Shown here: positions 862-54,626 of the stretch, piece by piece
How the letters are laid out: every line of letters begins with the position of its first letter
How positions within the stretch are numbered: the stretch's first letter is position 1
DNA from: Bolinopsis microptera
Taxonomy: Eukaryota > Ctenophora > Tentaculata > Lobata > Bolinopsidae
Direction of reading: 5' to 3'
DNA length: 60,000 nt
Assembly: GCF_026151205.1 (NCBI RefSeq)
Contig: NC_087084.1
Span: 4,955,538 to 5,015,537, forward strand
Program-made: the position numbers and the translations under genes
The notes under the pieces: generated by a model
Told to the model about the DNA's origin: nothing
The model's input: only the letters and a program-made list of their open reading frames with translations
The model's database searches: none

Positions 862-3800
862 CTAATCGATTGTAATAACATCATAAGCTATAACCTTTGC
901 CTCTTGAACAAGATTACGTCTTGGAGTGCTATTCTGAGTAACTAAACTTCCTTTAGCTACCTGATTACTGGAAGTAGGATGTGTGTTCTGTCGCATCTGA
1001 TTTTCTTTACCTGCAGGGATTTGTTGACTGACAGATTGTTTTGGTCCACTTTCCTTTGGGATAACATTCTCCCTATTTGGAATAAACTTTAACAGAGTCA
1101 AATATTCTTTAACACATGTTTTGTAGAATGCCAGCGCCACCTGTTTATCAAATCCTTCAGCAGTTTTAGTGATTATAACAACAGCATTTCCTCCAGTTCC
1201 ATGTGGAGTTAATGTCAGGTAGCAACCTTTGCCTTTATCATGGTCCTTAGCCCAGCGCCTGGCATCAGAAATACCTTTAAAGGTATTTCGTCCAAAATTG
1301 ATTGACTTATTGGGTTCTTTAAGAAATTCCACAACATTAGAGTGGCGAGCAATAAGAGCTTCTGGCCGAAGCCAAGTAAACTTGGGTTCACCTTTTCTTA
1401 CAGCTTCTTCTAGGAATTTAATTCGAGGTAAAAATATTCCTCGTAAACATTCAGGGACATTTTCCTTGTTTGAATCGTACTGAACCAGGATTTCTTTCAC
1501 GAATGGTTCATTAAGCTTTTGTTGCTGGTTCTCTGGCAAAGATGATATGATATTGACAACAGTTGAAACAGATGCAGCAAGCTTTTCGTACTTTTGAGGT
1601 CCAGAAACTATAGCTTTGTAGATTTCGGCAATTGCAGTATCATCCTCGGATGTTTTATGTTTCACACGCTGCATGTTATGGGATGGATTTTGTGCTTGAG
1701 AGGCAAGTTCAACAAATCGCATAAGTATCAAATCAAGAACGTTTACATTCTGGTGATGAATGGCCAAGATCACAGCTGGAACAAGATCTTTCAAGATCGC
1801 TATTTTGGAGATCAGTTTATCTAATTCTAGAGATTCATGACATAAATTCTCAACAAACATGTACTCAAGAATGGTCGTTGTAACAGGAGATGGAGTCCGA
1901 CTATTTGAACCCCATCTGTTTCGATAATAATAATTATCGTACTGGTTGGCAGTACCAGTGTCTTTCAAAATATCATTGACGATAATTTGTAACAGCACTT
2001 TTGGCTCGATGGAAGACAACCCTTTACAGAAATTCAATAAATCAGGGATCTTGGACTGTTCAGTGCTTTTTATGATTTCTTTGATGTCATTTACAAACGA
2101 TTCATCGGGGAAAATTTTGGCTGTCTCAGTAATAACTTCTCCCGATTTGTTAGTAATGCCGAACTTTTTCAACATTTTCAACAGGGTTCTAGATTCTTCC
2201 TTACGTTTTAGTATGTGACACATTCTGAGAATTTCAAGGAGCATCTTTTCAGATGATTTCATTTTAACTATATTGGCCCAAAGATACTGGAAACCTTTCT
2301 CACCCTCCTCCATCTTTCCTCCTTCTAAAAGACTGAGAACATGAGAAACACCGTCTTCTATGCTTGACCGACACCTAATAGCGAGAGAACAGTCAGTTCG
2401 CCACAGCAACAGAACTTTTTTCTTATACCACCTTTCCCTAGTTGATCCTTCGTTTCCACTTGGGCCAGAGCAACCTTCACCCACATCATCCGTTCCCCAA
2501 AATTCTTCTTCCGAATCATTTTCTTTCCTTCTTTTGACCTTTCCAGCTAATACTTTGTAACGCTTCGGGAAATTTGTTATATCTTTTCGAGGATTGATGT
2601 CAAAGCTTAGATTTTTGCAGTCTGAATTTGTATTCAGAGAAACGAAATCGTCTATGTCGTATGACCTCTCATTTTCTTCCATATTGCAGCAATCATGATT
2701 ACCGAAGCAATTTTCTGCTGCACCCCCACCCCATCTATAATAACCGTCACCACAGTTGCCATATTAACCAATTTTCTTATTTGCAGTGGCAACACACATT
2801 TCCCACTTATCTTTTCCAGACATTCTCATATCATAGTCTAAAGCATGTTTGAGCCCAGCAACAATATTGCTGTCCTTCCCTTTAAAGAATTCTAATGAGT
2901 TTTCTTTCAAACTCGCATCAGAATACTCATACTCTAAACCCCAGCAGAGAAAGGGTATTGTAGGAGAATCCATCAGAAGATTCAGAGTATTACACAGTCT
3001 CACAGCATTAGTTGAAGCAGTGTAAGGTGAAGGTTTCATTCCATTACCTTCCCAACAGAGTGAGTAAACAAGTACAGCACGATAACCTGAGGTAACTTCT
3101 TTCAGCTCATGTGGACAACTCGCATAGTGCGCAACAAACTTACAGTGAGTGCTACTACCAGTGGAACTGTTGTCAAAGACTTTGGATGATTTCAGGTGGT
3201 TCACAACTAGGTCACCTCCAGTAAAAACTGAAGGAAGTTGCACAAGCAATGTTCCAAACATGTTATCTTCTTTTTCAGTGTCTTTATGTTCAGCAAACTT
3301 GCCTCCTTTTTCATAAATAAGGAGTTTGTAGATCTTTCCGTATATTGTCGCACCTGCTAGACCTAAAGCCGACTTTATCTTCTTCTGGATAAGAACACTG
3401 ACCTGCTTGACAAATTCATGATTTTTTATCTCAAACTGGTCCGGCTCTAACTGGAAACTATTTCTCACTGAAGTATCAACTAATGTCTCTTCACCCATTC
3501 CATAGGGGGACTGTTTGCAAAGCGGTTTCACACAATTAAATGTTGTGTCATTTAGTGGGAATGGTAAAAGCCCATAGTCTTTCACATCAATCAAAGGAAT
3601 AACAGGTAATTCCACGTCAGAAAGTAAGCCACCAGTAGCAAAGTCTCCAGAATTAGTTGCATATAGTTTCATCAAAGCTCTGAGATTTCTCTTTAGTTCT
3701 TTAATAGGTTTCACATGTGAATTAGCATCAACGGTTTTGGTAGCAACTTCTCCACGGCCACTGATAGTTTGCTCTATCTTTATGTTCATTGAATCATCAG

Positions 3801-4032
3801 GGTTTGCCCCTACAGACACAGTCATTGTCTCTGTTGATTCGGTCTTACATTGAGGTTTATCAGAATCTTGGACTGATGATTCATCTGTACCATCGATACT
3901 CTCTGAAGAGTCTTTGTCAGAGTTCGAGTCACAGTTATCAGGTACAGACTCATGATCTGAGTCACTTACTGGAGAGTCGTCTTCTGAATCTTCTTCCTCT
4001 GAGAGAGAATGTTCACGTTTACAAGAGCTCAT
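862..4032 (-). CDS. 2-oxoglutarate/Fe(II) dioxygenase (P4Hc-type) protein with one in-frame stop
   Basis: The minus strand reads as one frame from an ATG at 4032 to a stop at 862, broken only by a TAA at 2764-2766. The first ~420 residues have an acidic, Ser-rich N-terminus, then a prolyl-4-hydroxylase-like dioxygenase core: the iron-binding HKD, a GGDLVVNH strand, a distal CPHE histidine, and GYRAVLVY with the Arg expected to bind 2-oxoglutarate. The ~606 residues after the stop are mostly helical and match no domain I can name. The 27 codons between the stop and the next Met also look coding (Gly/Tyr/Cys-rich). I prefer the ATG at 4032 to one 13 codons upstream because an acceptor-like TTTCATCAG lies between them. 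Family members hydroxylate or oxidise proteins; the substrate here is unknown. It may be a pseudogene, two genes, or a gene with an unrecognised 51-nt intron over the stop. Confidence 0.7.
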
Positions 4033-4071
4033 GTCTGAGGACCTGATGAAATAATATGGATCATTATTCAT

Positions 4072-4655
4072 TATTCATTACGTAATAATATTATGATAAT
4101 ATCAAATATGATATACTAACATACTACTATACATGTCAATAAATACATGTCAATAAATACCGAAAACCCGAATACTTATTACTTCAATTCATGATGAGAT
4201 CACATACACAATAAACATTATCTTGCAACGTGATTTGTAGAGCTGTAATTATCAAAGGGTGTTTTAAAAGCTCTTATTATAGAAATTACAGAATATTTTG
4301 TATGATTGCTTACATTTTATCATGCAAATTGACTTTTATTTTTAAGTTAAATTTGTATTCACCTGTTCTCTGCAAATGTATAATTTGACACTTTTATTCG
4401 AAGGAAATACACAATTTTCATGAAAAGCAGATTAATAAACGATATACCGCAGAATAATACACATCTATTTTTTGCATAATATTATCATTCCAGATCCAAA
4501 CATATCCAATAATCCAACATACAAACATAATAATATTATGTTCTTATGTTAGCCCAAAGTGGCCGTACTTGATGAAAATTGAACATTAGCTTTACATTGC
4601 TTCGAACTGTGGTTTATATCTGTATATCTCTAGGTAGCGCATGTTTTAGATTATC
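4072..4655. other. AT-rich intergenic region between divergent ORFs
   Basis: It separates the start of the minus-strand dioxygenase-like gene from the plus-strand ORF near 4692, so it could hold promoters for both. I see no clear TATA box or repeat, apart from a short direct repeat of ACATGTCAATAAAT near 4132-4158. Confidence 0.3.
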
Positions 4656-16582: not shown

Positions 16583-18230
16583 TTGAGGGTTGAACGAGGA
16601 AGGCCAAGGGCTTACCAAAAGATCCAATATCTTGTAAGGGGACTTAAGGAGGCTCTCATTCGTCCAAGTTTGAAGAAACGTGGCCTTGACGGTGAATCTC
16701 TATCTAACTATAGGCCTATTAGCAATCTCTCATTCTTGTCAAAAATCATTGAGAAGTGTGTATCTATACAGCTCACCAGTTATCTTGAGGATAACAACTT
16801 GCTTTCTAAAGTTCAGTCCGGCTATAGGAAGTTTCATAGCTGTGAAACTGCAACAACCAGAATCCATAACGACATCTTGATAACTATTGACAAGAAAACT
16901 AAAGTTGTTCTTTTACTTCTAGATTTGAGTGCTGCCTTTGATACTGTCAATCACCCAAGATTAATCAAGAAGCTAAGATCTGCTTATGGAATTACAGGCA
17001 TTGCTCTTACATGGATCAGGTCCTACTTGGCTAACCGTTCATTTTGTGTCAAAGTCAAGGATTCGTCTTCCTCAGCAACTGTTCTTGAGATAGGTGTGCC
17101 ACAAGGTTCAATCCTTGGCCCCCTGCTATTCATATTGTACACCAAAGATCTTGAGAACATTGCAAGTATGCATGGGTGCTGTATTCATTTGTATGCTGAT
17201 GACACCCAGCTGTATTTCACTCTTGATTCTGATGACCCATCACAGCTAGAGCACAATATGGAACACTGTATGTCTGATATCAAGAAATGGATGACAAACA
17301 ATTTCCTTCAACTGAATTCTTCTAAGACTGAAGTCATCGTTATATCCTCTAAATTTGACTCAACAAATATTCCAGCCTCTCTACAGATTGTTAAGGATCA
17401 AGAGCCACATGTTGTTAGTGGAACTGTGAAGAGTCTTGGGCTGTATTTGGACAGTTATCTTTCAATGAGTGATCAGATTACGTCAGTGGTTCAAGCATGT
17501 AATATTCAGATCAGAAATTTGTGGTTTATTGCATCAAAACTGTCTTTTAACCTTAAGATTCAGCTTGTTCATGCTCTAGTACTCTCTAGAATTGATTATT
17601 GCAATAGCGTATATTTTGGACTGAGCTCTTATGATTTAAGTCGTTTACAGAAGGTGCAAAATTCTGCTGTAAGATTTATTTTCGGGAGAGGAAGAAAGGC
17701 ACACACTACTCCACTACTTAAGAAAGTTCATTTTCTACCAGTTAGATTTAGAATAGATTTTAAGATTGCCCTACTTGCCTACAAGTGTTTAAATAATATA
17801 GCTCCTCCTTACTTAAAAGAGTTGATATCTCCTAGGCAGCAAAGTTTTAAAAATGTACGTCTTGATAATGATTATTTTTACCTTAGTTTTCCGCCCTCTC
17901 CTAACTATGTAAACACAGAGAAAGCTTTTAGTCACTGTGCAGTTAAAGTATTTAATTCCTTGCCATACGACATAAGATCAGCTGAGTCAGTTACATCTTT
18001 CAAGACCAAACTTAAAACATACTTCTTTTCTCTAGCATTTGATTGATTTTGCATTTACATAGGTAAAATGAACTTGTCATGTCTAATTTTCAATTAAACT
18101 AAGCTCAGTTAATGTAAGAGCCGCTTTAGAAAGCACTGGAGTTTATCTCCAGGATTAAATTATATCGAGTTATATGATTTAGCTATAAGGCGGTTTATAA
18201 ATGTTGTAATTATTATTATTATTATTATTT
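16583..18230 (+). mobile_element. 5'-truncated non-LTR retrotransposon (CR1/L2/Rex1-like)
   Basis: A 487-codon open frame (16583-18046) encodes a reverse transcriptase. In order it has NYRPISNLSFLSKIIEK, LLDLSAAFDTVNH (first catalytic Asp), GVPQGSILGPLLF, LYADDTQLY (the catalytic YADD box), and the C-terminal thumb and connection region. The endonuclease and ORF1 are missing, as expected from incomplete reverse transcription. The 3' untranslated part ends in an ATT repeat at about 18207-18230, a LINE-type tail. The ORF has no internal stop, which points to a fairly recent insertion. The exact clade is not certain. Confidence 0.88.
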
Positions 18231-19680: not shown

Positions 19681-19891
19681 AAATCAACCCTTTAAGAATT
19701 CAAAAAATTCCCTTAACAATCAAAAAATTTTTTACCCAATAAAAATGATATCATAATAAACAAAATTTTAACGTGTGGTACTCGTAAAATATTTGTTCCA
19801 AGGACCGTATAAATATTTGTTCCAGGACCGCGTCGACAAGTCCAACTCGGCGCGCTCCTGGTAGGTTGTAAACCTACAAACATAATTAAAC

Positions 19892-19970
19892 TTACTGGGC
19901 CGCGCTCAGCCTGTCTTTCCGCCAAATCTCTATATGTTAATAAACATGATAGCCTGAGGTCCCCAGGTAA
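19892..19970 (+). mobile_element. Tiny TTAC...GTAA element (family C), copy 1
   Basis: A 79-bp element from TTACTGGGCCGCGCTCAG to CCCCAGGTAA. It is flanked by an exact 8-bp duplication, AATTAAAC, at 19884-19891 and 19971-19978. The ends form an imperfect inverted repeat (TTAC-TGGG against TTACCTGGGG). Confidence 0.85.
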
Positions 19971-20609
19971 AATTAAACTTGAACATTTAATAATTTGATG
20001 TCAATCCATCGAGATGTCAATCCATCGAGATCCATCGATATCGTTGCTCTGCGAAGCAAAGCAACGATCGACGTTAATTGACGATGTCAATTCATGGCAG
20101 CTCGGCGCGGCACAGTAGTTGGTAGTGCATCTCGCGTCGCCGATCTAGCCAGAGAAGCCTTATTAAGAAGCCTTATAAAGTGCGCGGCGCGGCACAGTAA
20201 CGCATCGCGCTACAACGATCGACGATGCGACGCAAGAATGCTAGTTTGCGCGGCGCGTCGAAGCGGCATAGTCCTCCAACTGATAATAAACTCATAAATA
20301 TTAGACATGCTCATAAAATATAAAATACGCTTTTAACTATATTATAGTTTGTTTGAAAATTCGTCTCGATCATACATTTTTTTCAGCGCAGTTATATTCG
20401 AAATTTAATACAAATTCTAAAGCAGAAGTGAACGTTATTCAAAAAATATTTCCTCAACTGACTTGTTTTCTAAATGTTTAAAGTTCATAAATTTAATCGA
20501 TAGTCTATCTAGTGTTTTGTTTCACGTTGTAGCCATGCCGCGCACTCGTGCGCAGCTTCGTCATTTGTGGCTTCTGCACCACAAAACCACTTTGTGCAAT
20601 GACAGCACA

Positions 20610-20969
20610 CCCATGAAACCTTACTGGCTGGAGCCTAACTTTGAAAGTAAAAGAGATCAGATAGCGTCTTCCGGTTTTTTTGCAAAATGTTCGTTTCGCA
20701 AAAATAACGTTTCCCCCCAGGGGGGAAATTGAAAACAACGTAGATTTTGAATTATCGCGAAAAGTCATATTTTAGGCCTTATAAAACTGCGTAGCTTTAA
20801 CTTTGCAGATTGTTGTTCTCTGATTGGCTGGATCGTATCACGTGGTACACGGTACAATTGCATTTTGGAATATTTAGAGCGTGCAAATGCAATGAACTAG
20901 CGAGCGCGCGCGGAGTTCAACATGCTGTGAAAAGGCGATCACCCTGTAGTAATATCGCTAGCCAGTAAG
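20610..20969 (+). repeat. ~360-bp repeat, copy 1 (empty site)
   Basis: It starts at CCCATGAAACCTTACTGGCTG and ends at GATTGCTGGG. It is nearly identical to 21443-21917, differing by point changes, small indels and the element inserted in copy 2. It contains a palindromic CCCCCCAGGGGGG patch. Confidence 0.85.
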
Positions 20970-21442
20970 GATTGCTGGGTATGAGATAGCCGAGAAGCTG
21001 CAAAGGGGGGGGGGGTTGATGGCGAGTTATGCTTTGTCAAAGTGGATGCTTTTTAAAATGAAACCGAAAGTCTTTAAACTGCGCGTTGTGTTGGTTTTAT
21101 GTATAAGTATCGATTCGCATGACTTGTGACGAAATACCCAATTAGAGTTAGTACAAGCCAAACACAAGGTTATCTCGTGAACAGATCATATGCACCTGTT
21201 GCAGCCGGTCGCAGACCTTGGTCGCTATAATTGAGCGCTAAGTGACGTTAAGTGACCGTTGAGCCACACTTCTTGACAAATTTTGTTTAGAATAACGACC
21301 CAATCATAAGGTAAAAAGTATAGGCTGTATTTTAAGGGCTAATCTCAGTCCATCTAAGTCGTAAGTTTGGAGGAATAATACGGCTAATTTTGCGATTCTT
21401 TAAAGTCTTGAACCAAAATACCCTGCTGCGCCGTCAACTGGG

Positions 21443-21917
21443 CCCATGAAACCTTACTGGCTGTTACTGGGCCGCGCTCAGCCTGTCATTCCGCCAAATC
21501 TTTATATGTTAATTCCGCCAAATCTTTATATGTTAATGAACATAATAGCCTGGGGTCCTCAGGTAAACTGGCTGGAGCCTAACTTTGAAAGTAAAAGAGA
21601 TAGCGTCTTCCGGTTTTTTGCAAAATGTTCGTTTCGCAAAAATAACGTTTCCCCCCAGGGGGAAATTGAAAACAACGTAGATTTTGAATTATCGCGAAAA
21701 GTCATATTTTAGGCCTTATAAAACTGCGTAGCTTTAACTTTGCAGATTGTTGTTCTCTGATTGGCTGAATCGTATCACGTGGTACGCGGTACAATTGCAT
21801 TCTTGGAATATTTGGAGCATGCAAATGCAATGAACTAGCGAGCGCGCGCGGAGTTCAACATGCTGTGAAAAGGCGATCACCCTGTAGTAATATCGCTAGC
21901 CAGTAAGGATTGCTGGG
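21443..21917 (+). repeat. ~360-bp repeat, copy 2 (with insertion)
   Basis: It has the same unit as 20610-20969, interrupted at 21464 by the tiny family C element. A 245-bp inverted-repeat element abuts it at 21918. Confidence 0.85.
21464..21566 (+). mobile_element. Tiny TTAC...GTAA element (family C), copy 2
   Basis: It is flanked by an exact 8-bp duplication ACTGGCTG (21456-21463 and 21567-21574). The uninterrupted site is preserved at 20623-20630 in the sister repeat, which fixes both ends of the insertion. It is 103 bp rather than 79 because a 24-bp internal segment (TTCCGCCAAATCTTTATATG plus TTAA) is duplicated in tandem. Confidence 0.9.
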
Positions 21918-22162
21918 CAGGGGGAGCTGAAACCAGGTTTTCGATCAAACGCTGCCATGTGTAGTCAAACATTGCCAAAAGTTGCTCTCGTCCAATCAAA
22001 TCGCTGCTTTATGTAAGCCAAGCTCCGCATATGAATAATTGTAATTCAATTATGCATACTAACTTGCAAAATGCAGCGATTTCATTGGACGAGAGCAACT
22101 GTTGGCGACGTTTGACTACAAATGGCAGCATTTGATCGAAAACCTGGTTTCAGACCCCCCTG
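21918..22162. mobile_element. 245-bp inverted-repeat element (CAGGGGG ends)
   Basis: The two halves are inverted copies of ~90 bp with a short middle. The left end reads CAGGGGGAGCTGAAACCAGG; the right end, read on the minus strand, CAGGGGGGTCTGAAACCAGG. A copy of GTTGCTCTCGTCCAAT is in each arm. The flanking 8-mers match poorly, so the target duplication is not clear. It has no coding capacity and could form a long hairpin. Confidence 0.8.
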
Positions 22163-22499
22163 TGATAGGGGGTTACAACGTGATACAAATAATTCCACGC
22201 GTTGGCATACAAATATTTTTGTTGTGCAATTCAATGTGCACATGTTATATGTTCTGAGACCAAAAATGAAACAGTACTGGACTAAAAAGGAAAACAAATT
22301 TTTCAGTAAAACAAATTTTTTAGTAAAACAAATATTTTAGTGAAACAAATTTGTAGGTTTACAACCTACCAGGACGCGCGCGCCGAGTTGGACTCGTCGA
22401 CGGTCCTAATATTTGGAAAAATTATTTTGAGTATCACCCGTTAAATACAAATTTGAAATTTAAAATTTTATCCTTTCTTTTATTTTATAGTAGGTTTAT

Positions 22500-22980: not shown

Positions 22981-23013
22981 GCGGTGGTTATGCCTGTGGT
23001 GCTTAACGCCCGT

Positions 23014-23450
23014 GTCCGTGGTGAGCCCTTCGGTGTCTATGCCTGTGTCCGCGGTGAGCCCTTCGGTGTTTACGCCCGTGTCGACGGTGAGCCCTTCGGT
23101 GTTTACGCCCGTGTCGACGGTGAGCCCTTCGGTGTTTACGCCCGTGTCGGCGGTGAGCCCTTCGGTGTTTACGCCCGTGTCGGCGGTGAGCCCTTCGGTG
23201 TTTACGCCCGTGTCGGCGGTGAGCCCTTCGGTGTTTACGCCCGTGTCGGCGGTGAGCCCTTCGGTGTTTACGCCCGTGTCGGCGGTGAGCCCTTCGGTGT
23301 TTACGCCCGTGTCGGCGGTGAGCCCTTCGGTGTTTACGCCCGTGTCGGCGGTGAGCCCTTCGGTGTTTACGCCCGTGTCGGCGGTGAGCCCTTCGGTGTT
23401 TACGCCCGTGTCGGCGGTGAGCCTTTTGGTGATGACGCCCGTGTCGGTCA
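23014..23450 (+). repeat. 33-bp minisatellite, 13 units
   Basis: A GC-rich unit containing GGTGAGCCCTTCGGTGTTTA is repeated 13 times without spacers. The first units and the last differ most; the middle eight are identical. As 33 is a multiple of three, the array stays open in several frames. On the plus strand one reads GEPFGVYARVG and another SPSVFTPVSAV; on the minus strand one reads TEGLTADTGVN. A plus-strand ORF runs 22984-23463. No signal peptide or partner domain is attached and no intron signals are clear, so I treat it as a minisatellite rather than a gene. Confidence 0.9.
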
Positions 23451-23464
23451 GCTTCAGAACTAGC

Positions 23465-24412
23465 TATCGCCCCAACTTCAGTAGCTGTCGATTTTTCTTC
23501 TGAAATTAAATGTGAATTTTGAAATTATTTGTTCCATACAATGATCATTATCGAAGACAGAGTTATCATAGTATGAGCTGATACTGATCAGATTTGATTC
23601 ACAGTAATAACAAAATTTTGATAAAACAAAATTTTATTCTATCAGTTAAACAAAAATTCAGTTAAACAAAAATTCAATTTTATGCCATTTATTACAGAGT
23701 AAACAAGTTTACAATAAATCAATTTGATATTTAAAGGAATCCTAATTCAATGTGTAGTATGGTTGTCACTCTTTAAATAGATTAGATATAGGTTGACGGG
23801 GCAAAGGAGTGTTCGTGCTGTTCGCTATTGCTCACACCAAACGGCAACCTAGTAAAATTTTTGTATGGACACCGGTCTCCATCACGATACAAAATTAGGA
23901 TTGAAGAATTTATTGTATAACTTTTAGTGCAGTGGAGGAAGCGGTGTGGTGCATTAATAGAGTGACAGCCTACTGATTTAGAGTTGTTTTTACGTGAGCA
24001 TAATGGGTATATTTTTGGACCTAAAGGCTTTACTATGGCAACTTTAAAATTGGTTCTTTTAATCATTTATTAAATATCACTTAAAAAATATATAAATCTG
24101 GAATCTGTTCACACTGTGAACCAGTCCTATAAAAAAAACCTCTTAAATCAAATATTTAAAACGTCTCAATAATGGAAATAGTCATACAATTAAGAAATTT
24201 ACCAAATTCTTAATATCTACCTTAAGAGAAAAATACCTACCTAAGTCAATGTCTATACCCACAATCAATTCATATTTAGTTCAAGTATTCAAAGTCAAAA
24301 TCACCATTTCACAGAATTGGTTTTATTATAATAAAATAATTTGTGATATGTGTACAAGTGATAAATTAATAAATTAATTTACACCACAAAATGTTCAAAA
24401 AATATACAATTT
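23465..24412. other. AT-rich region between the minisatellite and the secreted-peptide ORF
   Basis: It has GTTAAACAAAAATTC-type short repeats near 23640-23680. A minus-strand open stretch at 23782-24043 carries several cysteines and could, with weak splice signals, be a second exon of the gene starting at 24535. I do not call it as a gene. Confidence 0.3.
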
Positions 24413-32441: not shown

Positions 32442-35400
32442 ATGTCAGGAGGAGTGACTGCAGGAGTTAACATGTCAGATAAACACAACCCAGCTCGAGC
32501 AGTCCCTGTTAGGGTCAAGAAGAAGTGAGATACTTTACATGTCTAAATATAGCAAAGCTTTCTTTGGGAATGAAACTTTCAGTACCTCAATCGTGTCTTT
32601 TGAAGTTGTGACATCCTCAGTGACCTTGCTAGATGGTCATTCAAGAAAAATTCAGTCGAAACAAACAGTGAAATTTGAGTCTTGGAAAGCTGATCTCTAT
32701 AAAAAATCAAATAATCACTTAATGCCAATGGCTTATTTAGATTTGTTTATGACTTGTTAATGACTTGTTAATGACTTGTTAATGACTTATTAACAGGACT
32801 CTTAAGAAGCTGAGTAACGCAGAGAGACTGGAAATGGAGAACGCGAAGATGGAGGAGAGACTGAGAACTCTGAGGAAAACAATAGAGAAGGAGAAGGAGG
32901 AGAGGAGGTTAGTACAAATAATCAATTAACTAATTAATTAATTGATTAACTAATCATTTAGTTAGTTAGCTAATCACTTAATGAGTTGAGGAGAGGAGGT
33001 TTGTACACAACTTGTTATCTGTATTTATTGGTGAATATTTGTCACGTGGTATAGTAACTGTGTTATATTTGGTTGATTTATGTCCCATGTTACAGACATT
33101 GTGTTCTAATTGTTTTATTTGTGTCACATGTTAGGGATACTGTGTTCTAATTGGTTGCCACCCCAGTAACTGTACTAGCCTGTGGAAATCAGGACAGACG
33201 GGAGCTATAACTAATTTCGCAAAGGAGCACAGCAGTAAGAACAAGAGTGCTGGTATTAAACTCGGTGATAAGAAGATTAAAGTTAAATTTCTTACTCCTG
33301 TGGTAGAGAAAGGTGAGAGTTTATTGACGTTAAAGTATGAGAAATAATTGTATTTTTTATAGCCTTGGACTTGCTTGGCTTAACTTAATAAAATATGAAT
33401 ACTGCTTGGGGGAATTGATCAAAATGGGAATGAAATGAAAAGGCATTGCAAATTAGTAGAACACATGCATATATTAAGATAAAAGGTGGTTGGGTTTAAC
33501 AAATCACCACAATCATGCCTTTTAAGACGGAAAATAGCCCAGTTAATATAGAGTACCCTTACATTCCAGGAGAATCCCGAGAAAAACAACGTAAAGCAGC
33601 CCCACGTGTCTCCACACCCCACAACTCTAGCACCACAGCTGGTTCCTCTTGGGCAGAACCACAAACATCCCACCAAGGTCCCGCTGAATCTCAGCGCTCT
33701 GAAGCACTGCGCCCTGAAGCGCTGCATGCAGATGCGCCGCGTGCAGATGCGCCTCACACAGAAACACACAGTTTTGAGATGCAGAGAATGCCCCGTGAGA
33801 GCATGGCGTGGAGTGAGGTGGGGGAGATGGAGGGGTTGCAGAGACAGGCTAGCATTGTGGGACCGGTGTGTGGTCAGTGTGAGCTGAACGGCGCTCAGAT
33901 GGTACGTGTTTTAGTTTCGGTGGTAACCTAGGTTAAAGTTGGTATTTATATTTAAATCTTTGATGGTACTTGATACTTCAGATGGAGATGTTCTCGATTG
34001 AATTGCAAATATTGTGTGAAGTTCGTTTTTCAGATAACTGATTTTTTTCAGAATTGCATGGAATGTGGCGAGAAATACTGCACAGAATGTTTTGCAATGT
34101 TCCACAAAAAAGGAGCCCTAAAATCACATACCTCCCGACCTCTGACCCGACAAGCCAACTTGGCTTTAAACAGTGGTCCTGCAAGACAAGTCAAAATGTA
34201 GGTTCTTTGTTAGTATGTTTTTGGGAGTCAATTTATCCTTCGGCTCAATTCATTGAAATTGGTTTGAGATTGGTTTTGAGTCCGCTTAAATGATATAGCT
34301 TCTGTGAGTTAATATCGATTAGGACGCCTAATTTTGTGCTTAAGAAAAAGTTTGCATGCCACTACTGTTCAACTGTGAAAGTGCTTGACAATTTCTGTAC
34401 GTGATTTCCATAGGCCTTCATATCAGTCACGAATCACGAATTAATATAGCCAATATTTTCAGTGAAGAGCCGATACAAGAAAATTCTCTCTGGGGAGATT
34501 ATGATGAAGATGCATCAGCTGCAGGATTCATGGACGCAGTCAAAGCATGGCGGGGCGAAGAAGTAACAACAAATAGTACTGGTAATTTGAGAATATAATC
34601 GCATTTTGACACATTTTGAAATCTGCTAACCCGCGGCCAGTAAGCAAATGGAACGCGCGGACGCCGAACGGTTATTTTGTGTTGAAACGTTTTCGCGCAA
34701 CCAGTCAGTGTAGCGAAAATGCGAATTTAATGATCGATTTGCTATGCATTACGATAGAACGATATATCACGTGCTTCAATTATTTTGTTATGTGTTTAGG
34801 CAACCAACAAACCGGTGTTGCTGGGAAGACTACGGACGGTTCACAAACAGCCAAGGGCGCTATCCCTGATATAAACTTCTCAGAAAACGAGGTATTTATT
34901 CTTTTATCAGCCAAATTTCGAAACCATTCCGTACTTACTTTTTTACTTACTTTTACTTTGGGCGATCCTCAATCGAAATCCCATTCACTGTCTGCCTCCA
35001 CACGTCTCGATCGCACATAACAGTTCGAAGGTCGTCTAACTGGAGCCCAGTGTCACGAGCTACTACGTCCAGGAAGGTGAGTGGTCTCCTTCCACGGCCC
35101 GATTGGGCAAGTCGCCAGGGGAGGATAGTGGAGATAACTTGGTCAGAAGCTCTCATGCAATGCCCAGCAAATCTGGAACGCCTCGACGCAACCACTGAGG
35201 CAATAGATGGAAGGTTGCCATAGATCTGCTTGAGCCTTGAGGGTTGGATGCTTCTTCCACGAGATGTTCTTGGCCTTCATTAAAAGACGGGTGTAGCATC
35301 CGTTGAGGCGTTTCTCAAGCTGCTTGTTTATGGTCCATGTCTCTGATCCATAGAGCAATACTGGTTCGACACAGGCTCTAAAGAACTTGACTTTCAGTTG

Positions 35401-37900
35401 TTCGGAAATGCCAGAGGACCAGACTTTTTGCAGTTTAATACAGGCTGACCAGGCCATTCCTTTCCTTGTGTTGAAATCCTTTCTACTGTCCGCAATGAAA
35501 GAGCCGAGGTATTTAAAGTCATCAACCTGTTTAATCTGGCGGCCTGAGATAGAATGTAAGTCGACAGTGTCAGGGATATTGATGGTCATGAACTCGGTCT
35601 TAGAAGCATTCATAGCAAGACCAACTTGTGCGGCTGCATTTTCAAGGTCTGTCAGCAGAAGTTGGACTTGCTCTATGGTGTCTGAAATTAAGGCCAAATC
35701 ATCAGCAAAGTCAAGGTCTGTGATTTTGACCGCAGGCACTCTTCGGCTTTTCCTAGGCACGATGGTAAGACCGAATTCGTCACCCATGCAGCTTCTGAGG
35801 ACATAGTCAAGGACGATGATGAAGAGAAAGGGTGCTAGAGTGTCCCCTTGAAGAACTCCAATAAGTGTCCTAAAAAAGTCAGTAAGGCCGTCGATGGTCT
35901 GGACACGAGAGAACGATGAGTCATAAAGAAGCCTGATAGCATCTACAAGTGGAGTAGGGATACCGTAGAGGGAGAGGATGTGGAAAAGGGCATCCCGGTT
36001 AATGCTGTCGAACGCTTTCGAAAAATCGACAAACACAATTGCGGCTGAACGATTTCCGATCTTGCATTCCTCGAGTATACGACGTAGGGCAAGGACCTGT
36101 GGGAGTGTGGATCTTCCTCTACGGAAACCATTTTGGTTTGGCCGCAAGAGGGGATCAATGAATGGGTAGATCCGGTTGAGGATGAGCTTGTTAAAAACTT
36201 TCGCTGCAACCGGTGCCAGTGAAATGCCACGGTAGTTTCCTGGATTAGTAAGATCACCCTTTTTGGGGATAGGAATGATAGAGGCCGTTTTCCAGGCTTG
36301 GGGGATCACACCATCCATGAGTGCTTTATTACAGAATCCGAGGAGGTTTTCACGTAGCTGGGGAAGCTTCCAGACTGAGGGAGGGATGCTATCTAGACCG
36401 GGTGACTTGGAGGACTTGGCGGACTTCAGAACCGTGTCGAGTTCTGACATGCTGAAGGATGAGCAGCTGATGGGCAGGGTGTCAGAGACTCGCTGGTTGA
36501 AGAAGGGGAGGGTGAGGTCCGGCGGAGGCTGTTCTGTGCCTAGAAGGGACTTGAAGTGCTCGAACCAGATGTTGAGCCGTTCTTCGGTAGTGCCTCCTGG
36601 CACTTTGCAGTATGGCACAGTGTCGGAAGATGTTAGTTGCCTGATGATGTGCCAGGAACTGCGATGCCTGTGCTCGGGGTTAGTTTTCTCCAGCAGGTCA
36701 GTCTGTTGTCGAATGTGCTGTGAAGTAGCAGCATTATAGGCTTCGTCCAGTTGCTTCTTTGCGTCTTCAAGCTTTTCCTTGGACGAAAAAGAGGGGGAAA
36801 TCCTGTGACTCAGGGACGCATCCTTTAGGATATTGCGATGGTGTGCAATATTAGGATCGTTGTAAGGATTTTCCCGTTTCCTCTTCCTCTTTTTTGGCAA
36901 CACCTTAAGTGCTGTGCTTGTAACGCTTTTAACGAGTAGGTCGTAGTCGGACTCGAGCTCTGCTCCGTAATAATTGCAATATATCTCTATGATCTATGAA
37001 GAATTGATCCATTAAAGGTGAAAGCATATAATGAGGGTATTTTGATATTAATTGTTATTTTGATAATTTCAGAACGTGTCATACTTTGAGCGGATGCTGT
37101 TGAAGAAACAGAAAGAGACAGTAGAAGATGACATTATTGACAGTGAAGCTAAAAGTGAATACAGTGCAGGAGAGATAACCGTGTCACAACTCGACTTTTG
37201 TAGAGGTAAAGATAACATGAGTCATTTTGTTACGAATTTTTATAAAAATATGAAAATCTATGCTTGAAAGTCTAAAGGAATAACGCTCCTATAACCGCCC
37301 CTCAAAAGCTCAAAGTATAATCACGGAAAGCGTAAGACGTAAGCGTTTTATTACACTGGATCCAATCAGATATGTATACGATTTTAATTTCAGATCTGTT
37401 GGCTCACAACATCGAAGAAGATCGCAAATCTAGGATGGAGGCTGAACGACCAGAGAGTGTTATTGAAATTGTGGAAGTTAATTCCAACATTGGTAAATAT
37501 TAACATTCTTTATTCTATACCACATATTATTTGATTATTCACTCTACGACATTGGTAATTGTTAACTGCATTTTACTACAGTTTTTACCACAATATTTCC
37601 AGTATAAATGTCGGTGACAATGTTTTGCCACACTTCCATATAAGTATCAATCATCGAAACACGCCTAGTTACGAATGAAAAGCTTTTACAATTTGAATTC
37701 TCGACAATTATCATGATCATGGGTTGTTTGTATAGTTTAATTTTTTAAAGTTACATTGTTTTGTTAAATTTTTTGTAATCACATTTTAAAAGTTAAATTT
37801 TGGCTATTCAACAGGGTATTTAGAAGAGATAGCAAGTTGTGTAGTTGAAGAGTCGCCAGTTTGCTCTGACGATGAGGATGATGTTAGAGGTCAAATGGAG
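32442..37900 (+). CDS. ZBBX: Zinc finger B-box domain protein ZBBX (3' end not found)
   Basis: Exons seen: 32442-32524, 32797-32907, 33167-33312, 33543-33901, 34052-34197, 34463-34581, 34800-34891, 37073-37205, 37394-37492, 37815-37900, giving 458 codons with all phases consistent. The N-terminus has a short coiled coil (NAERLEMENAKMEERLRTL), as in ZBBX. The B-box-like zinc finger is VCGQCE, then CMECGEKYCTECF and HKKGALKSH, split over two exons. The conserved blocks YDEDASAAGF...AWRGEE, SYFERMLLKKQ and IVEVN follow in the vertebrate order. The last exon ends at a strong donor (GAG/GTAAGA), so more exons should exist, but I see none before the lectin gene; without splicing there the frame stops five codons later. 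ZBBX is little studied and is expressed with motile cilia in vertebrates. An antisense LINE sits in the 2.2-kb intron 34892-37072. Confidence 0.82.
34930..36970 (-). mobile_element. RTE-like non-LTR retrotransposon, 5'-truncated, antisense in a ZBBX intron
   Basis: A 586-codon open frame (36903-35143) covers a linker region and the full reverse transcriptase: NYRGISLAPVAAKVFNKL, FVDFSKAFDSINR, LQGDTLAPFLF and FADDLAL (catalytic FADD). The C-terminus continues in another frame down to a stop at 34953 (RRSRFAGHCMRASDQ, GRRPLTFLDV), so one frameshift lies near 35200-35240. The endonuclease is missing. The 3' end carries an AGTAAGTA-type repeat near 34930-34950. Being antisense in an intron, it need not harm ZBBX. 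Confidence 0.85.
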
Positions 37901-46314: not shown

Positions 46315-46600
46315 AAACCTGGTACTGAATTAGTTACAGTTGAGTTAAGTTAGAGAGATTGAATAGATCTATAATAAAAATAGATAGTATAAACCTATAC
46401 TTAATTGGTTGCAGTTAAACACTTGACCAAAAAATTAAACAAAATGATAACAAACACTATGTACGTAAGTTTTGGTAATGACTCTAGGACCTTAATTCTT
46501 CGTGCGATTGGTAACATCAATTAAACTGTGATTTGGAAGACATGGAATCAAGGCCACCATTCCAAGTCTCAGCAATAGCAGTACGCAACGTCAACAGTCA

Positions 46601-46684
46601 TTACTGGGCGGCGCTCAGTCTGTCATTCCGCCGAATCTCTATTGTTTAAGAACATAATAATAATAGCCTGGGATCCCCAGGTAA
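46601..46684 (+). mobile_element. Tiny TTAC...GTAA element (family C), copy 3
   Basis: It runs from TTACTGGGCGGCGCTCAGTC to CCCCAGGTAA. The 8-mer AACAGTCA occurs at 46593-46600 and again at 46686-46693, one extra A after the element end. Confidence 0.8.
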
Positions 46685-46736
46685 AAACAGTCACAGTTTG
46701 ATGGTAATTCATTTGCAGTAATGGGTTAATTTGCAG

Positions 46737-52232: not shown

Positions 52233-54626
52233 ATGAATTCTGATGCTAGTTCGGAACAGAATAAACCACCTGAAAAAACAACCATTTATTATAACTATAG
52301 TAATGCAAACCTTGATAAGCTCTGTGAAGAAATTGAAAACGACATAGATACATTCTACCACAGATGTGACTCTTTTGAATCCTTCATGGATCTGTTTCAA
52401 GAAAAGATAGATATATCTTGCAAATTGGCTTCACCAAAAACCACCAAACGAAATAGCATAACAAATCCATGGATCACAAACGGCCTCATCAACTCTGTGG
52501 AGAAAAAAGCCAGACTTTATTTTGAATGGAAAAAAACAAAAACACTGTTAATTCCAGATGGGGATCCGGAAAGACATAATGTTTACAAGGACTACTCAAA
52601 ATATCTTAAAATTGCCATAAAAACTGCCAAAACCAGGTATTATGCTGAAAAGTTTGAGAAAAATAGCCATAACTCCAAAAAAACCTGGCAAATAATCAAC
52701 GAGCTTCGTGGCAAAAAGAAGAATCAGCTAAAAGATGACTTCATTATAGATGGAACTAGAGTAATTTGTAGGCGGACAATTGCAAACAAATTCAATAGTT
52801 ACTTTACATCTTTAGCTAGTAATTTAAATGAGAAAGTTTTGTCCGACAACCAACTGTCTATCCAACCAATGCAATCATTTGTTGAGTTTATGTCGAAATC
52901 AGTCAACAGTTCAATACATCTAGAAGAAACTCATCCTGAGGAGATTCTTGAAATAATTCAAGAATTCGTTAATGGAAAAGCCAGTGATATACCAATAGCA
53001 GTTATCAAGAAACCGGCTTATCTCTTATCCAACATATTAGCAAATTTGTATAATACATGTATTCAAAAAGGCACGTTCCCATCCATATTCAAAATAGGCA
53101 AAGTAACTCCTATCCATAAAAAAGATAATAAAGAAAATATTGAAAATTATAGACCTGTGTCAATATTGCCAATCTTTAGTAAGATATTTGAAAAAATAAT
53201 ATACAAACGGCTTTATACCTTTTTCACTGCTAATGACATTCTCAGTAATGAACAATTTGGTTTTCGAAAAGGCCACTCAACCTCACATGCACTCCACAAA
53301 TCAGTTGATTCAATCACAACATCAACATCCAGTGGTAATCATGTTCTAGGAATCTTTATTGACCTAAGCAAAGCTTTTGACACTCTTGACCATGGCATTC
53401 TCCTGAGGAAACTGGAAAATTATGGAGTTAGAGGTCTAGCTCTAGGACTTCTAAAAAGCTATTTATCCGATAGATCACAGTATGTTTCATTTCTCAACAC
53501 TACATCAGAGACTATGAATGTAAAATATGGAGTTCCCCAAGGTTCCATACTAGGCCCTCTACTTTTCTTATTATATATGAACGATATAATAAACTGTTAC
53601 AAAGGCGATGAATGCAAATTTGTGCTCTATGCTGATGACACAAATATATTTATCACTGGACCGTCCAAAGAATCAACATACTTGAAGGCCAATAAAGTTC
53701 TTGATTTCGTATGCAAATTCATGAGAAGTAATCTCTTACATATAAATATGTCTAAATGCTGCTACATACATTTTCTACCTGCATATGAATCTGATGAAAC
53801 CTGCGCCAGAGTTAGGCCGTATGCCAATGAATATGACAAATCACAAGGAATATTTATAAATGGACACAAAATTGTCAAGGTTAGCAACACCAAATTTCTT
53901 GGTGTAGTAATTGATGAAAAACTTTGCTGGGGCCCACATATAGAATATCTAAGAAAAAAAATTAGATCCACTACAGGAGCACTTAACAGGATTAAACATT
54001 CAGTTCCAGGGGAACACTACCAAAAAATATACTCTGCATTATTGGAATCACATCTTGCTTACGGAATAAGTGTTTGGGGCTCAGCCCTCAAAGACCAACC
54101 AAACGATAAGCTGTTCATAACTCAGAAACGTTGTATAAGAATCCTTTTTGGAGACCTAAATGCATACCTTGACAAACATGCCACTTGTGCACGAGCCAGA
54201 CCTTATACAAAACAGAGGTTAGGAGCTGCTTTTTTCGAAAAGGAGCACACCAAGCCCATTTTTAATCGACTAAAATTGCTTACTGTTCAAAACTTGTACA
54301 AATACCACTGTATATCTGAGATATTTCGAATTATGAAATTTCGCACTCCATACTCGTTGTATTGTACTATAGACACATCAAAACGTGATACAAGTAATGT
54401 CATAATCCTCCCAAGAAAAACCAACACGTTTCTTTATATAGCCTCCAAATTGTGGAATAGCATACATAAACGGATTCTAAATGAGAATGGGGAAATCCTC
54501 ACTACTTCTGTATCTTTGGTTAAATTACGCTGTAAAAGTATCATCCTGGGATCCCAATCCATCAACAATAATAACACCTGGACTTACCACAACTTTCACA
54601 TCGCCCCTCACTCAGTCACAGACTAA
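52233..54626 (+). CDS. LINE ORF2, second part: reverse transcriptase
   Basis: It is 797 codons long. The polymerase blocks are ENYRPVSILPIFSKIFEK, FGFRKGHSTSHAL, FIDLSKAFDTLDH (catalytic Asp), YGVPQGSILGPLLFLL and LYADDTNIF (YADD box), followed by the thumb and a long C-terminal region ending with TFLYIASKLWNSI. All catalytic residues are present. Coding upstream of its first Met continues from the endonuclease ORF. Confidence 0.93.
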   Translation: MNSDASSEQNKPPEKTTIYYNYSNANLDKLCEEIENDIDTFYHRCDSFESFMDLFQEKIDISCKLASPKTTKRNSITNPWITNGLINSVEKKARLYFEWKKTKTLLIPDGDPERHNVYKDYSKYLKIAIKTAKTRYYAEKFEKNSHNSKKTWQIINELRGKKKNQLKDDFIIDGTRVICRRTIANKFNSYFTSLASNLNEKVLSDNQLSIQPMQSFVEFMSKSVNSSIHLEETHPEEILEIIQEFVNGKASDIPIAVIKKPAYLLSNILANLYNTCIQKGTFPSIFKIGKVTPIHKKDNKENIENYRPVSILPIFSKIFEKIIYKRLYTFFTANDILSNEQFGFRKGHSTSHALHKSVDSITTSTSSGNHVLGIFIDLSKAFDTLDHGILLRKLENYGVRGLALGLLKSYLSDRSQYVSFLNTTSETMNVKYGVPQGSILGPLLFLLYMNDIINCYKGDECKFVLYADDTNIFITGPSKESTYLKANKVLDFVCKFMRSNLLHINMSKCCYIHFLPAYESDETCARVRPYANEYDKSQGIFINGHKIVKVSNTKFLGVVIDEKLCWGPHIEYLRKKIRSTTGALNRIKHSVPGEHYQKIYSALLESHLAYGISVWGSALKDQPNDKLFITQKRCIRILFGDLNAYLDKHATCARARPYTKQRLGAAFFEKEHTKPIFNRLKLLTVQNLYKYHCISEIFRIMKFRTPYSLYCTIDTSKRDTSNVIILPRKTNTFLYIASKLWNSIHKRILNENGEILTTSVSLVKLRCKSIILGSQSINNNNTWTYHNFHIAPHSVTD

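Follow-up and report, generated by a model that had tools for sequence, protein, structure and literature searches.

The window, by which we mean the whole 60,000-nt stretch of Bolinopsis microptera DNA analysed here, contains three copies of a tiny element with TTAC...GTAA ends, each flanked by a short duplication of its target (Table 1). The preliminary description had located the three copies and their ends correctly, and its claim of a tiny mobile element is supported both by the target duplications and by an uninterrupted insertion site. It had further assigned an 8-bp duplication to every copy; this is exactly so for copies 1 and 2, and does not hold in this form for copy 3, where an additional A separates GTAA from AACAGTCA, so that the duplication can be taken as 9 bp long with a single mismatch or as 8 bp and a filler base. 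Copy 2 breaks up a host repeat that has an intact sister nearby. When the flanks of this copy are joined minus one repeat of the duplication, they equal the sister sequence at every position compared, which bears out the empty site claimed for the sister repeat. The internal 24-bp tandem duplication claimed for one copy is likewise exact and lies in copy 2.

Table 1 Copies of the tiny element, their target duplications and uninterrupted sites in the window.
Feature	Position	Strand	Remarks
Copy 1, left target duplication AATTAAAC	19884..19891	+	exact 8 bp, abuts TTAC
Copy 1, 79 bp, A/C type right end	19892..19970	+	TTAC...GTAA ends
Copy 1, right target duplication AATTAAAC	19971..19978	+	exact 8 bp, abuts GTAA
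Sister host repeat, uninterrupted ACTGGCTG site at 20623-20630	20610..20969	+	48/48 match, 20610-20657 vs joined flanks of copy 2
Copy 2, left target duplication ACTGGCTG	21456..21463	+	exact 8 bp
Copy 2, 103 bp, G/T type right end, exact 24-bp tandem unit at 21488-21511 and 21512-21535	21464..21566	+	
Copy 2, right target duplication ACTGGCTG	21567..21574	+	exact 8 bp
Copy 3, left target duplication CAACAGTCA (9 bp with one mismatch, or last 8 bp)	46592..46600	+	
Copy 3, 84 bp, TTAC...GTAA ends	46601..46684	+	
Copy 3, right target duplication AAACAGTCA	46685..46693	+	
Paralogue without insertion, 67 bp, 98.5%, of the site of genome copy L040	54896..54962	-	
Paralogue without insertion, 61 bp, 98.4%, of the site of a genome copy in L088	22062..22122	+	

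The preliminary description had proposed a search of the whole genome, and judging from exact end counts the family is large, with thousands of copies. Our pattern searches covered the assembly, which comprises 232 contigs and 264.65 Mb. The exact right end ATAGCCTGAGGTCCCCAGGTAA (A/C form) gave 1,052 matches, 519 on the forward and 533 on the reverse strand; opening both variable positions of the right end raised this to 2,516 exact matches, and a 24-nt left end matched exactly at 2,024 places. The reversed-pattern control gave 0 matches for each of the three patterns. The right ends are evenly distributed over both orientations (1250/1266, n = 2,516). Within the first 8.47 Mb of contig C1 we counted 68 exact left ends, 98 exact right ends and 51 elements with both. 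Capture-recapture estimates of 3,355, 3,889 and ~4,080 copies, i.e. about 3,400-4,100 genome-wide, presuppose independent mutation of the two ends and a representative 8.47-Mb stretch of C1. A description of this family was not found in the open-licence papers searched, which does not show its absence from print.

The sample of copies was assembled in three parts: the 20 matches after the window's own copy, among 40 scored; the first 62 places on the list of 1,052 right-end matches, one of which was already represented by locus L004, giving 60 new loci; and 20 regions around chosen left ends, to which 13 further left ends were added later. The window and the first 100 loci together yielded 108 parsed copies, of which 105 remained after removal of same-copy repeats and of copies with short flanks. 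As these copies were chosen by sequence match, well-preserved ones are over-represented among the 105.

The elements measure 65-104 bp, with additional parses of 119 and 142 bp, and have a median length of 80 bp (n = 105). They have no coding capacity, as an element of this size offers no room for a gene. Both ends are well conserved, as judged from two counts in which the mismatch limits of the parser favour good ends: in 54 copies selected solely for an exact right end, agreement over the left 32 nt averages 95.5% and ranges from 87 to 100% at single positions, and among 25 loci picked by an exact left end alone, the right end is present in 22 and exact in 18, the three loci without it being L093, L100 and L158. 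Among the 60 loci that follow the order of the list, our first parser recognised no left end for the listed right end in 7 (L027, L028, L038, L046, L048, L064 and L076); in L038 another, complete copy stands next to the orphan right end, and L027 and L028 have common flanks. The middle region of 13-67 nt is unconserved, with 90 distinct sequences among the 105 elements. Its free variation next to conserved ends presumably reflects that nothing beyond the ends is needed. An excess of internal tandem duplications (unit of at least 9 nt) is unconvincing, with 5 of 105 elements against 4 of 240 control windows.

When reversed, the right end reads as an imperfect, gapped inverted repeat of the left end, comprising ~27 nt on each side with TTAC and GTAA outermost. 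The alignment score of the inverted ends is 30 for one form, which none of 2000 shuffles reached (9.7 ± 4.3), and 23 for the other form, reached by 5 of 2000 shuffles (9.0 ± 4.2). The right end itself is a near-palindrome, of which several forms exist. Genome-wide, 1,052 of the 2,516 right ends have the mispaired A/C form; in the parsed sample it is 74 of 105, next to 16 copies with the G/T form, 6 with G/C and 9 unparsed; since the sample was mostly picked by the A/C form, the genome-wide figure is the fair one. Short palindromes in the left, the middle and the right part also led us to consider a folded, cloverleaf-like single strand. The folds obtained are weak (z = -1.07, -1.52, -2.70, -0.67 and -1.20), and together with the frequency of the mispaired form in the genome this leaves a single-strand fold unsupported. 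The right-end palindrome might still play a weak role, as the forms other than A/C do pair. The conserved left end includes CCGCGC; an excerpt of PMC12221973 describes the chromatin-loop motif of ctenophores as GC-rich with two CpG.

Comparison of the flanking 8-mers, another proposal of the preliminary description, revealed consistent duplications: 82 of the 105 copies carry an 8- or 9-bp duplication with at most one mismatch, and 23 carry neither. Exact duplications abutting the element are 8 bp long in 50 copies and 9 bp long in 15, and those with one mismatch in 11 and 6 copies, respectively. The duplication is thus not strictly 8 bp, as had been claimed, but 8 or 9 bp, with 8 bp the commoner length. 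Random re-pairing of the flanks yields 0.56 exact duplications of 8 bp and 0.2 of 9 bp per 105 copies (about 1 in 105); a second run gave 0.475 and 0.175 exact duplications and 0.23 and 0.07 with one mismatch (8 and 9 bp). The genome-wide signal of duplications and ends is therefore far beyond chance. The 54 copies picked by their exact right end alone include 39 with a duplication of at most one mismatch (24 and 8 exact, 4 and 3 with one mismatch, for 8 and 9 bp, respectively) and 15 without. Mismatches within the duplications amount to 17 per 677 bp, a figure that understates the divergence, as copies with more than one mismatch are uncounted. The preference for particular 8-mers is weak (T at position 3 in 22 of 50). 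Some of the 23 copies without a simple duplication can be accounted for: in L051 the last 12 bp are duplicated and the duplication CTTAACTG follows, and a parse in L063 is part of a nested pair. In L019, L022 and L037, additional bases stand between the end of the element and the duplication.

The search for empty sites compared the joined flanks of the 82 duplication-bearing copies with the fetched loci and the window. Fifteen sites found a match, of which two were self-matches of L059 and were dropped, leaving an uninterrupted paralogue for 13 of the 82 sites. These include the sites of window copy 2, of L040 and L088, whose paralogues lie in the window, and of L007, which is matched at 53 of 53 positions in L173. 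L052, also among the 13, sits in another copy of the tiny family. The sites of L081, with gaps beside the site, and of L050, which lies in a GGTTAGGG-type repeat, are weaker; 11 of the 13 are free of such doubts. The copies in L052, L063, L081 and L088 are inserted into other copies of the family. The preliminary description had named copies always embedded in one longer repeat as evidence against a mobile element. This is not what we observed, as the flanks differ between copies; only some pairs, such as L002/L003 and L090/L091, resemble copies of one larger stretch.

Based on these data, the family very probably consists of very short non-autonomous DNA transposons of the MITE type, moved by cut-and-paste. 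Like MITEs, its members are short and without coding capacity, have inverted ends and target duplications, here of 8 or 9 bp, and reach a high copy number, in the thousands. The family lies at the lower edge of the size range of 80-500 bp that an excerpt of PMC2874221 gives for MITEs; its inverted ends are imperfect and gapped, and no autonomous partner was found among the places followed. The family is ordinary in kind and unusual in size and end sequence. BogoMITE from Blepharisma is similar in that its short copies also occur in thousands, but PMC9942856 describes for it a Pogo-family partner and a TTA/TAA duplication, neither of which was seen in the tiny family. Movement would rely on a DDE/D-type transposase supplied in trans: after binding to both conserved ends, the enzyme would cut out the element and link the element's 3' ends to target strands with a spacing of 8 or 9 bp; filling of the gaps at the target would then create the duplication. 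Conserved ends of ~50 nt in total and a spacer thus suffice for mobile DNA to reach thousands of places. If confirmed, the family represents a near-minimal transposase substrate in a ctenophore, and ctenophores are an important lineage for questions of early animal evolution.

The preliminary description had hinted at hAT through the 8-bp duplications, and a deletion derivative of a hAT transposon would agree with the 8 bp of most duplication-bearing copies (50 of 105 exact), a length shared with hAT elements and hAT MITEs; hAT transposases are also abundant in the genome, with 150 matches scored of 366 candidates. However, 9-bp duplications form a clear minority in the tiny family (15 of 105 exact). 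The ends of hAT elements follow the CAG/YARNG rule, whereas the tiny-element ends are TTACTGGG / TTACCTGGGG, and the elements start with TTACT or TTACC; here the preliminary description was right in setting the TTAC ends apart from the usual CAG type. Within this genome, the sole readable end of the near-identical hAT pair L130/L131 is CAGTGGCG (...GCCACTG), and no TTACTGGGCCGC- or TTACCTGGGGACC-like word occurs in 20 hAT regions, which represent 19 places, 17 of them covered only 1.5 kb downstream. With the 9-bp minority and the non-CAG ends, the hinted link is unsupported, and we consider a hAT origin improbable. MULE duplications are 8-9 bp or slightly longer, so that a derivative of a MULE, or of a Merlin element, would account for the mixed 8/9-bp duplications, and both transposase families are present in the genome (58 Merlin and 88 MULE matches). 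The ends that could be read again disagree. For Merlin, an excerpt of PMC8101967 records 8- or 9-bp duplications, as in the tiny family, but a terminal 5'-GG instead of TTAC, and the Merlin family starts readable from two copies in this genome are GGTAACTCGG, GGCAACTTG and GGCAGT, none of them TTAC. Candidate pairs of ends and duplications at 5 of 15 MULE loci (one in simple repeats) begin with GG, AGG or CGG; words resembling the tiny ends occur in 7 of the 15 loci, and the one followed, in L116, lies outside the family homology. By end sequence, the tiny family matches neither hAT nor Merlin, and derivation from a Merlin or MULE element appears possible but doubtful.

The TTAC ends and the mixed 8/9-bp duplications might instead mark a DNA transposon lineage with a transposase outside the described superfamilies; this lineage would survive in the genome mainly or only as ~80-bp derivatives, and its enzyme gene would perhaps no longer lie between such ends; we put this forward as a tentative and rather unlikely proposal. 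Two other classes of element fare worse. An introner, i.e. an intron-making DNA transposon, is suggested by the CAG/GTAA right end, which resembles a splice junction (the element end reads CCCCAGGTAA), and PMC9860276 describes introner families of which some carry inverted ends and duplications of 3-9 bp. Yet several copies of the tiny family are located in repeats, including each other, and GTAA would stay in the message if splicing took place after CAG, so that this origin is very improbable. The small size and high copy number would also suit a SINE-like or other RNA-copied element. This reading we regard as hardly credible, since both ends are sharp, an A-rich tail is absent and the duplications are 8-9 bp; moreover, L046, L048, L064 and L076, in which the left end is missing, show no duplication by eye, and the window has no Rfam match at gathering thresholds. 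A MITE-type DNA transposon family thus remains our preferred reading.

A longer, transposase-bearing relative, which the preliminary description had suggested to look for, was sought by end-continuation patterns and at sampled transposase loci, and this partial search found none. Transposase domains of MULE (PF10551, 88 matches), Merlin (PF12762, 58) and hAT (PF05699, 150 scored of 366 candidates) were detected, and P-type (PF21787) and KDZ (PF18758) domains gave 0 matches, as did the control genomes. Among the 14 of 58 Merlin, 15 of 88 MULE and 19 of 150 scored hAT matches inspected, no transposase with matching ends was seen; the inspection reached only 1.5 kb downstream of the domain at 17 of the 19 hAT places, and ends were read at part of these loci, which leaves out e.g. 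Merlin L106-L109 and L112, ten MULE loci and the far ends of the 17 hAT places. The left end is followed by another continuation at 16 places and the right end at 72, most of which read as mutated tiny copies. No longer relative was present among the continuations fetched (1 of 16 left and 8 of 72 right) and three left-end loci without a right end. L150 and L170-L172 have a common upstream flank, so their recurring continuation lies inside a longer repeat. L173-L181 contain no credible long element, and L177 and L180 are short copies. In L105, TTACCTTCGGACCAAGGATCTATCATT adjoins a Merlin insertion, and the second end was not found in the sequence piece examined. A further candidate for a relative with such ends was the host repeat at 20610-20969, which contains TTACTGGCT at both sides; we rejected it, because CCCATG, where the conserved repeat begins, lies outside of these words and no duplication flanking the repeat was seen by eye.

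The Merlin-type element at ~578-2139 of L105 (C5:5797360-5800307) has GGCAGTCTACAAG ends along with the 8-bp duplication CAATGTAG. A Merlin element in L103 (C1:17443371-17446375) has as its neighbour, on the minus strand at offset ~2458, a left end of the tiny family that has diverged (TTACTGGGTGGCACTCAGCCTGTCATT), which suggests older layers of this tiny family. L130 and L131 (C12:6590700 and C12:7054500) are hAT copies that are 99.97% identical over 3.8 kb and have a CAGTGGCG-type end. Their transposase matches lie in 513-aa frames, and five further places score nearly alike; near-identity and near-equal scores together suggest recent hAT activity.

The copies of the family could serve as insertion markers and also as a record of repair scars, as exemplified by L180 (C10:718119-720119). 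At positions 51-196 of this locus lies a 146-bp element with the 9-bp duplication GAGGAAGGA at both sides, in which an inverted copy of the element's own left flank, exact over 49 nt, follows the palindromic end. At this one locus, the scar is best read as a product of repair at insertion, with snap-back synthesis starting from the folded end, a reading that requires at least one further template switch.

The window holds further repeats. At 19831-19880 and 22350-22402, two inverted pairs stand side by side, each of 25 nt and complementary at 96 and 100%, respectively; they bracket ~2.5 kb with copies 1 and 2 and possibly delimit a larger transposon-like repeat. Sequences at 21918-22017 and 22063-22162 form a 100-nt inverted pair, 89% complementary, around a 45-nt spacer, and a tandem array at 22984-23503 has two readable frames on the same strand (e.g. 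GEPFGVYARV repeats). Long frames at 16583-18046, 35143-36903 and 52233-54626 resemble reverse transcriptases of non-LTR retrotransposons; they contain YADD/FADD, which we take to be the reverse transcriptase motifs of such elements.
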